From NCBI GenBank assembly GCA_029865385.1, contig JAOUGX010000004.1:64110-97129 (forward strand): 33,020 nt of DNA, in the 5' to 3' direction. Below the pieces are notes generated by a model. The model saw nothing but the letters and a program-made list of their open reading frames with translations, searched no databases and was not told where the DNA came from. Position 1 is the stretch's first letter. Each line of letters opens with the position of its first letter. Shown here one piece after another: positions 21,592 through 27,611 of the stretch. Position numbers and translations under genes: made by a program. The DNA comes from Gammaproteobacteria bacterium (GTDB lineage: Bacteria > Pseudomonadota > Gammaproteobacteria > Steroidobacterales > Woeseiaceae).

Positions 21592-21633
21592 GATATTTCT
21601 CCGGGTTGAGCCTCCGTACACCCCATGGCACAA

Positions 21634-21661
21634 CCCCTTTTTCGGTGGGGCACCCAGTGCC
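21634..21661 (-). promoter_or_regulatory. rpsB leader alternative hairpins
   Basis: In the rpsB 5' leader, GGCAC can pair with GTGCC (3-nt loop, 21649-21661), and a CCCC can pair with GGGG across ACCGAAAAA (21634-21650). The two pairings share bases, so they exclude each other. In gammaproteobacteria S2 represses its own mRNA through the rpsB leader; this is a candidate site by position only. Confidence 0.35.
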
Positions 21662-21705
21662 GTGCGTCAGTGTACGTGTGGATTGTTTGCCTCTAGGGCG
21701 CGCGC

Positions 21706-26113: not shown

Positions 26114-26467
26114 GTGCTGAAAATCTATGGAATAGGCAGCTGTGACAGCTGTCGAAAAGCCAGGAAATGGCTGGATGAGAACGACAGGGACTATAAATTT
26201 CACGATATCCGTGAGGACGGTCTCGATATCGAGATGCTGGAGCGCTGGAGCCGGAGGATCCGCTGGGAGAAGCTGTTGAACACCCGCAGCCTGACCTGGC
26301 GCAAGATACCGGACGTTGACCGTAGCGGTATCACGCAAAGTCGTGCGTTGTCGATGATGCTGGAACATCCCACGCTGGTGAAGCGTCCCGTCATGGAGCA
26401 CCGCAGGTTCATCGCCGTCGGATTCTCGGCTGATCACTACCAGCAAATCTTCTCAAAGTTGGATTAG
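26114..26467 (+). CDS. yffB: ArsC/Spx-family thioredoxin-fold protein (YffB-like)
   Basis: 117-residue protein of the arsenate-reductase-like (ArsC/Spx) thioredoxin fold. It aligns along its whole length with E. coli YffB: VLKIYGIGSCDSCRKARKWL, LLNTRSLTWRKI, then HPTLVKRPVMEH and GFSADHYQQIF. Unlike E. coli YffB (CDTI), it has a full CxxC (CDSC). Its function is not established; YffB binds glutathione, and arsenate reduction is not expected. The start is GTG at 26114-26116, 4 nt after dapD. The gene commonly sits beside dapE or dapD, but here a repeat and the pst operon separate it from dapE. Its TAG stop lies in the 4-bp duplication flanking a MITE. Confidence 0.9.
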   Translation: MLKIYGIGSCDSCRKARKWLDENDRDYKFHDIREDGLDIEMLERWSRRIRWEKLLNTRSLTWRKIPDVDRSGITQSRALSMMLEHPTLVKRPVMEHRRFIAVGFSADHYQQIFSKLD

Positions 26468-26597
26468 GGAACCTCTGATTAATTCGTCATTGCGAGGAAC
26501 GAAGAGACGAAGCAATCTTTAAGTCATTGAATAAGAAGTAAGAGATTGCTTCGCTGCGCTCGCAATGACGGTGGATTTCGAATTAATCAGAGGGTCC
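26468..26597. mobile_element. 130-bp MITE-like palindromic element
   Basis: Terminal inverted repeats of 19 bp (26468-26486 and 26579-26597) match at 18 positions: GGAACCTCTGATTAATTCG against GGACCCTCTGATTAATTCG. The direct repeat TTAG flanks both ends (26464-26467 and 26598-26601), consistent with a target-site duplication. Inside, a second inverted repeat built on CGTCATTGCGAG ... GAAGCAATCT makes nearly the whole element one large hairpin. This core resembles a CATTGCGAG-type intergenic repeat seen in many bacterial genomes. There is no transposase, so it is non-autonomous. Confidence 0.85.
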
Positions 26598-26600
26598 TTA

Positions 26601-26675
26601 GGGGACAGTGACCCTGACTTTGCTGCGCCAGGCATGAACTGACCGTTCGATTCAGGAGTCAGCGTCACTGCCCCC
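26601..26675. repeat. REP-like imperfect palindrome, possible bidirectional terminator
   Basis: Two 19-bp arms, 26601-26619 (GGGGACAGTGACCCTGACT) and 26657-26675, are inverted copies with 17 matches around a 37-nt loop. GGGGACAG-type palindromes are known REP-like repeats linked to REP-associated tyrosine transposases (inference from memory). It lies between the convergent yffB and pstB ends, where it could also stop transcription. Confidence 0.65.
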
Positions 26676-26681
26676 AAGCCG

Positions 26682-27611
26682 CTAGCCGATTCGACCGGTA
26701 ATGTAGTCTTCTGTCAGTTTGTGCTGTGGATTGGTGAAGATCCGGTCGGTATCGTCCACCTCGACAAGATGCCCCAGATGAAAATAGGCGACGCGTTTGG
26801 AGACGCGCGCCGCCTGTTGCATTGAATGCGTCACTATGACAATTGCATAGTTCTGCGAGAGCTCGTCCATCAGGTCCTCGATGCGCGCCGTGGCTATCGG
26901 ATCCAGTGCGGAACAGGGTTCGTCCATCAGAATAACTTCAGGGTTTACCGCAATTGTGCGAGCGATGCACAGTCGTTGTTGTTGTCCGCCAGACAAGCCA
27001 GTTCCCGGTTCGTCGAGCCGGTCCTTGACCTCTTTCAACAGTCCCGCCCTGTCGAGGCTCGTATGCACAATGGCGTCGAGTTCGGAGCGGTCGGCAGCAA
27101 GGCCATGAATGCGCGGGCCGTATGCGACGTTGTCGTAAATGCTCTTGGGAAACGGATTCGGCTTCTGAAACACCATGCCGACTCTTGCGCGAAGCGCCAC
27201 CGGATCGAGTTCCTTGCTATAGATATCCTGCCCATCCAGCGTAATGCGCCCGGTTACCCTGGCCGACTCGATTGTATCGTTCATCCGATTCAAACAGCGC
27301 AGGAAGGTCGACTTGCCACAACCTGACGGACCGATCAACGCGATGACTTCGGAACGGCTGATTTCCAGCGTGACATCCTTTATTGCGTGATTATCGCCGT
27401 AATACACGTTGACCTTTTCGGCAGTAACGAATGCATCCGCACATCGAACATTGCCAACCGTCGTATCGCCGATTTCCATTGCCCTCGCCGTGTCACCACG
27501 ACGCTCCCCGGCAACCGATACCCGATCGCTTCGCTGCATGTCAGGCGCATCTGCGTGAGAAACCGCAGAATCTTCCTTTTGCGTCAATTTCGTCATTCTC
27601 GCCATTGTCAT
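26682..27611 (-). CDS. pstB: phosphate ABC transporter ATP-binding protein
   Basis: ATPase of the high-affinity phosphate importer, working with PstA, PstC and PstS. The 309-residue frame has Walker [10 protein letters not shown] (94-102), the ABC signature LSGGQQQ (206-212), Walker B VILMDE (226-231), switch His262, and ends EDYITGRIG like E. coli PstB. E. coli PstB is 257 residues; here about 60 polar residues precede the conserved start. An internal ATG (27477-27479, Met45, GAGG just upstream) would give 265 residues and may be the true start. It is the last gene of pstSCAB; phoU, usually next, is absent. Confidence 0.97.

Follow-up and report, generated by a model that had tools for sequence, protein, structure and literature searches.

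A MITE with IS5-type ends at the yffB stop codon encloses a pair of CGTC-tagged hairpins

Why should a non-coding repeat lie exactly on the stop codon of a gene, and how might it have come there? The question is raised by a short element in the window (the whole stretch of DNA analysed here, 33,020 nucleotides), which stands between two convergent genes. A sequence-only reading had placed a MITE and its duplicated target at 26464-26601 and had described 19-bp terminal inverted repeats (TIRs) matching at 18 of 19 positions. Recomputation returned the same boundaries and the same count, the interval consisting of a 130-bp element (26468-26597) with one copy of the target-site duplication on either side. 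We consider it very probable, at roughly 0.88, that we are dealing with a MITE of IS5 type that was mobilised in trans and targets YTAR, its cargo being a dimer of CGTC-tagged hairpins. The features are as follows; the borders of both hairpin units were read by eye.

26114-26467, plus strand: host gene, ArsC-family and yffB-like, its stop codon inside the target
26464-26467, no strand: left copy of the TTAG target-site duplication, with the yffB stop codon TAG at 26465-26467
26468-26486, plus strand: left TIR of IS5 type, GGAACCTCTGATTAATTCG, with matching ends on complete IS5-family elements
26485-26518, plus strand: first CGTC-tagged hairpin unit, tag CGTC at 26485-26488, stem ATTGC/GCAAT; the tag overlaps the final two TIR bases
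26541-26570, minus strand: second hairpin unit tagged with CGTC, which faces the first head to head and whose tag appears as GACG at 26567-26570
26579-26597, minus strand: right TIR, reverse complement GGACCCTCTGATTAATTCG
26598-26601, no strand: right target-site duplication, TTAG
26601-26676, no strand: palindrome of another repeat family, GGGGACAGTGACC..., outside the MITE
26682-27611, minus strand: convergent neighbour, an ABC transporter ATPase, taken as PstB from its position and from similarity

Mobility is suggested by the distribution of the element in its own genome. The assembly (198 contigs, 3.92 Mb) contains five full copies, and the four outside the window are 98.5-99.3% identical to the window copy. 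The search for further copies with these ends and a 4-bp duplication, proposed along with the original claim, thus yielded near-identical members with flanks of CTAG or TTAG type: TTAG/TTAG, CTAG/CTAG twice, CAAG/CTAG (L003), and CTAG with a shifted right end (L005). The duplication is perfect in three of the five young copies, and we count the remaining two against the main reading. In L005, the right end (~1628-1639) is shifted by ~2 bases and has a 10-bp GGTCGCCTAG in common with the left flank, as if changed by conversion or imprecise joining. L006 and L010 are two further copies that seem to have decayed; the former keeps CTAG on both sides. Near-identical copies at unrelated genes are what would be expected if the whole unit had moved recently.

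No listed ORF of at least 60 aa lies within the 130 bp, and the element is therefore non-coding. Its hairpin reaches -57.5 and -56.7 kcal/mol on the two strands, with none of 200 shuffles as good. A structure this stable on either strand, placed between the convergent yffB and pstB, might indicate that the element has been domesticated and is kept as a bidirectional terminator or as a stabiliser of mRNA 3' ends. We regard this as very unlikely, given that neither an intrinsic-terminator nor a promoter pattern was found at 26400-26750, that no Rfam family matched at the element, that the copies are near-identical and their host genes unrelated, which is the pattern that recent spread would leave, and that yffB and a convergent pstB abut without any such element (stops -4 to 73 bases apart) in 13 of the 26 relatives with a yffB homologue. 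Elsewhere in the window, a t44 RNA (RF00127) was found above its gathering score at 21605-21698 on the minus strand.

The junction between the two genes helps to define what the insertion changed. The yffB product matches ArsC (PF03960) and scores 119.7 bits against the YffB-type model NF008107, slightly below the model cut-off of 121. Its C-terminus falls at about the same residue as in most homologues, so its stop looks native, and the ORF does end with the TAG contained in the left TTAG, as had been proposed. The stops of yffB and pstB are 214 bases apart in the window, a gap filled by the MITE and the second palindrome; in five relatives, both genes use one common YTAR as their stops. Two genomes of the same genus gave no yffB match, hence no close-strain empty site could be read. 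Removal of the MITE joins yffB to the GGGGACAG palindrome. Members of this palindrome family usually start with GGGG or GGGGACAGTGACC, and the G of the yffB TAG doubles as the palindrome's first G, so the order in which the REP-like palindrome came first and the MITE second, as the sequence-only reading had it, would be the simpler one, though it is not proven. The palindrome family itself (GGGGACAGTGACC...GGTCACTGTCCCC; loci L226-L242 and the window) is often preceded by TTC and has many partial matches in the same genome.

Which sequence does the element recognise? The sequence-only reading had taken the stop codon itself to be the target. Its 4-bp TTAG duplication is confirmed by TTAG on both sides and by duplications of YTAR type at other copies, and the target that these define is YTAR rather than a stop. 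YTAR is given as the target of IS5 in the relevant part of PMC10359306. Among the matches listed, the 4-bp flanks were identical in 76 of 139 end pairs as compared to 2 of 1,112 shifted comparisons, with one end preselected for YTAR by the scan in 89 of the 139 pairs; pairs found by DNA similarity alone had identical flanks in four of ten cases. The 63 of 139 listed pairs lacking identical flanks, which we count against the main reading, differ through age or false pairing. Insertions occur in intergenic regions and within ORFs as well, and most YTAR sites lie off stops. At one locus of another genome (L031 of G013, 1500-1637), the two duplication copies are CTAA and CTAG; they differ by one base, and both are stops of convergent neighbouring ORFs.

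Complete elements with matching ends point to the type of enzyme involved. A genome of the same family as that of the window (G009) harbours a complete element of 1,188 bp (L097), flanked by TTAG on both sides, whose ends differ from those of the MITE by 2 and 3 mismatches over 18 bases. Its 320-aa transposase scores 355 bits against the NCBIfam IS5 model NF033581 (cut-off 140). In a gammaproteobacterial MAG, a second element of 1,186 bp (L130) has ends with 0 and 2 mismatches over 18 bases and TTAG on the right, its left flank being cut by the contig end; a third complete element (L221 of G013) is flanked by CTAG/CTAG and has weaker ends, with 5 and 6 mismatches. The transposases of L097 and L130, the two that were scanned, belong to NF033581, and the complete elements carry the domains DUF772 and DDE_Tnp_1. 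A comparison of the L097 transposase with PDB sequences gave no match.

The expectation of a transposase with matching ends is thus borne out in related genomes and fails in the genome of the window: the own assembly has no match to an L097-type transposase, which we also count against the main reading, and relatives of the L097 protein were found in 3 of 99 genomes, the window's genome being among the 99. Its own four DDE_Tnp_1 proteins show no relationship to the L097 protein at E 0.001, and no MITE-type end lies at their loci within 5 mismatches, which speaks against them as the mover. Mobilisation of the core by a RAYT is likewise not supported, the three Y1_Tnp loci of the genome lacking the tested CGTC-hairpin and GGGGACAG words. 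Mobilisation in trans by an IS5-type transposase would fit these observations. A 1,037-bp candidate for a further complete transposon (L174, 2448-3484) was rejected; it consists of two separate MITE-type pairs around a metallo-hydrolase-like ORF, which is not a transposase. With this ORF between IS5-type ends, TTAG at both outer edges and a full MITE on one side, L174 is possibly a composite unit.

A target of YTAR leaves the question of why the insertions are so often found at stops. In the genome of the window, six of seven copies coincide with the stop of a gene, and for three of the six this stop is common to convergent genes. The window copy is on the yffB stop and another on that of a formate-tetrahydrofolate ligase gene; one CTAG is common to the stops of an integrase-family gene and a tRNA synthetase (W/Y) gene, and one stop to a methyltransferase-like gene and a beta-propeller gene. 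L006 lies on a stop common to two long predicted ORFs and L010 on that of one ORF. L003 is the only one of the five young copies away from a stop.

A wider set gives the same impression in weaker form. From 143 elements, 68 could be scored, leaving out 55 without a perfect YTAR duplication and 20 with short flanks: 22 insertions are at stops (6 of them shared), 34 are intergenic and 12 lie inside predicted ORFs, a distribution that speaks against the stop codon as the target. Among 1,279 YTAR sites of these loci, 63 are at stops, none shared, 398 are intergenic and 818 lie inside. A larger control over 789 kb of three genomes had 139 sites at stops, of which 10 were shared, with 381 in intergenic regions and 1,132 inside ORFs; it weakens the stop excess, as do the non-coding CTAG sites of the own genome, which are already mostly stops (33 stop versus 18 intergenic in 400 kb).

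These numbers bear on whether the transposase, or a host factor, actively steers insertion to gene 3' ends and shared convergent stops beyond the preference for YTAR. The own-genome copies and the excess over YTAR sites of the same loci would favour steering, as would a comparison matched on genome, 4-mer and gene orientation, in which 14 of 27 element pairs of those three genomes were used (1 inside and 12 unusable omitted): 12 of the 14 are on stops versus 7.4 expected (P ~0.003) and 4 on shared stops versus 0.6 expected (P 0.001), with gene calls that are home-made and P values that assume independent copies. Against it, YTAR and selection should already yield much of the pattern, given the composition of the non-coding CTAG sites, and within convergent junctions the elements divide into 12 stop and 6 intergenic, the controls into 72 and 54. 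The residual excess was not repeated in four new held-out copies (1 stop, 1 intergenic, 2 inside); the later sample had five usable copies, with 1 stop, 2 intergenic and 2 inside, one of the intergenic copies being at the place of L112. We therefore hold steering to be unlikely: YTAR plus selection accounts for most of the stop pattern, and active targeting of stops is unproven.

Under the main reading, a DDE transposase supplied in trans would cut at the GGAACCTCTGATTAATTC ends and insert the element at a tetranucleotide of YTAR type, TTAG in this case, which would be duplicated. Since any YTAR carries a stop codon on either strand, a gene whose stop lies in a YTAR would have an intact stop on both sides of the insertion; events of this sort would be harmless and could persist, with selection acting as the filter. 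The CGTC hairpin dimer would be carried between the IS5 ends as one unit.

It is this interior, missed by the sequence-only reading, that sets the element apart. Between the ends, CGTCATTGCGAG...CTCGCAATGACG form a head-to-head pair of hairpins with the CGTC tags outermost. The arrangement recalls the CGTC REPs of Di Nocera et al. 2013, described in the consulted part of PMC3733652 as having 8-9 bp stems, 4-5 base loops and CCA tails. The window units share with them the tag on the outside, AT at the first stem positions, the head-to-head dimer and a location mostly at gene 3' ends. They differ in having a perfect stem of 5 bp, long loops, CT tails in place of a CCA-like tail, and a position between transposon ends. 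Given that the 8-9 bp stem and the CCA tail are absent, we call them REP-like. Units elsewhere come closer: at L103 and L427, both flanked by CTAA/CTAA duplications, they have the tag, an 8-bp stem, a 4-base loop and a CCA tail.

The combination recurs. Outward-facing tags within 60 bases of both ends, the test used for the dimer, were found in 36 of the 149 elements that have IS5-type ends, as compared to 31 of 20,000 random windows, although members of a single family do not count as independent. Later loci, part of them preselected, bring the count to 44 of 169. Among these 44, 18 have one layout of 126-131 bp, in which one tag is at base 16-17 and the opposite one at base 23-27; part of the set was preselected for a tag near one end. 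This layout holds both ATTGC and ATTCC hairpins. Versions of the hairpin include ATTGC, ATTCT, ATTCC and rarer ones, and the first five stem bases have their exact complement in 74 of 88 units, across six sequence versions. Elements of 159/160 bp flagged by a looser core test have a different interior and were excluded by the tag test. A MITE family of 158-160 bp, different from that of the window element, has the same IS5-type ends around a symmetric CGTAATAGCGAGCTATTGCG-like centre (G014, G090, G053 and others; e.g. L070, L092, L297).

Of the 369 genomes examined from the class, 23 contained the fused 24-mer of end and tag (up to 2 mismatches); they fall into 16 numbered families and include the window's genome, and at least one of the 23 is a false hit (L422 of G132, without a tag). 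The backwards control gave 0 among the matches listed. Of 18 elements paired in a later sample, 6 had identical flanks and 9 both tags.

The dimer is also found on its own. At least 11 CGTC dimers of the window's genome lack recognisable IS5 ends, and the enclosed form is thus not the sole state of the repeat, a further point that we count against the main reading. Among ten such dimers checked, seven lie between convergent and three between tandem predicted genes, and three of the ten overlap a predicted ORF. Tandem arrays of 18-26 bp CGTC-hairpin half-units were seen beside naked dimers of the same genome (L007 1398-1503, L008, L012, L014, L015, L016).

Could the dimers be independent mobile units that entered existing IS5-type MITEs or were captured by them, so that the IS5 ends are no vehicle at all? 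The naked dimers would fit this, as would the occurrence of ATTGC, ATTCT, ATTCC and other hairpins between the same ends in different taxa, a spacing that differs in delta-type elements, and the published CGTC REPs, which in the consulted part of PMC3733652 mostly occur without such ends. Yet the one layout is kept in 18 of 44 dimer-bearing elements (part of the loci preselected) despite ATTGC versus ATTCC hairpins, no transposase has been published for CGTC REPs, and the recent copies have ends and dimer together. Taken together, we judge independent entry or capture to be rather improbable, and prefer carriage of the dimer between IS5 ends.

Several known systems come close. With IS5-family insertion sequences and MITEs, the element shares the ends, the YTAR duplication (PMC10359306, as far as the source was available) and, on the complete elements, a DDE transposase; in contrast to these, the window MITE is 130 bp and non-coding, and its interior is a CGTC hairpin pair not derived from a transposase gene. 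According to the part of PMC3733652 consulted, CGTC REPs apparently have no dedicated transposase, and movement by other transposases was left open; next to the window dimer no transposase was seen, and IS5-type ends enclose it. The same part of that source describes, for CGTC-1 of Halothiobacillus neapolitanus, a dimer enclosed in an inverted repeat (41-bp palindromes) that is not found without the dimer. There, the palindrome has another sequence and is presented as a target rather than as the ends of a transposon. Another Halothiobacillus genome (G099) gave no support for these palindromes as IS5 ends: the 20 loci viewed showed a different palindromic family, with no CGTC dimers or YTAR flanks. 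The small palindromic family of this genome (L393-L411) has ends like GGGGCACCTCGAAAAACC. IS elements inserting into REPs, as reported in the accessible part of PMC1525189, similarly tie IS5-family elements to REPs and REPs to convergent genes, whereas the IS lies inside the REP there and the REP dimer lies inside IS-type ends here. In the open literature searched, from which subscription journals were mostly absent, we found no report that connects CGTC REPs with IS5 ends.

An IS5-type MITE at a stop-codon YTAR is ordinary. What deserves further attention is the conserved combination of CGTC dimers with enclosing IS5 ends, in repeats that reportedly lack a transposase. Tentatively, and at odds that we place below even, IS5 transposition might be a general vehicle of CGTC REP dimers: the arrangement of IS5 end, dimer and IS5 end would then be old and conserved across the class and beyond, naked dimers would at least in part be decayed remains, and the YTAR target, with its stop codon on both strands, would explain why such repeats come to lie at the 3' ends of genes and at convergent junctions. 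IS5 packaging is thus a candidate route for CGTC REPs, and suggests how hairpin repeats without a known mover may spread. The package makes the mobility of CGTC REPs a testable question, for which a single transposase and a 130-bp substrate would suffice. The geometry of YTAR and stop codons offers a simple and checkable reason for the presence of repeats downstream of genes, as the target duplication gives each of two convergent genes its own stop codon.
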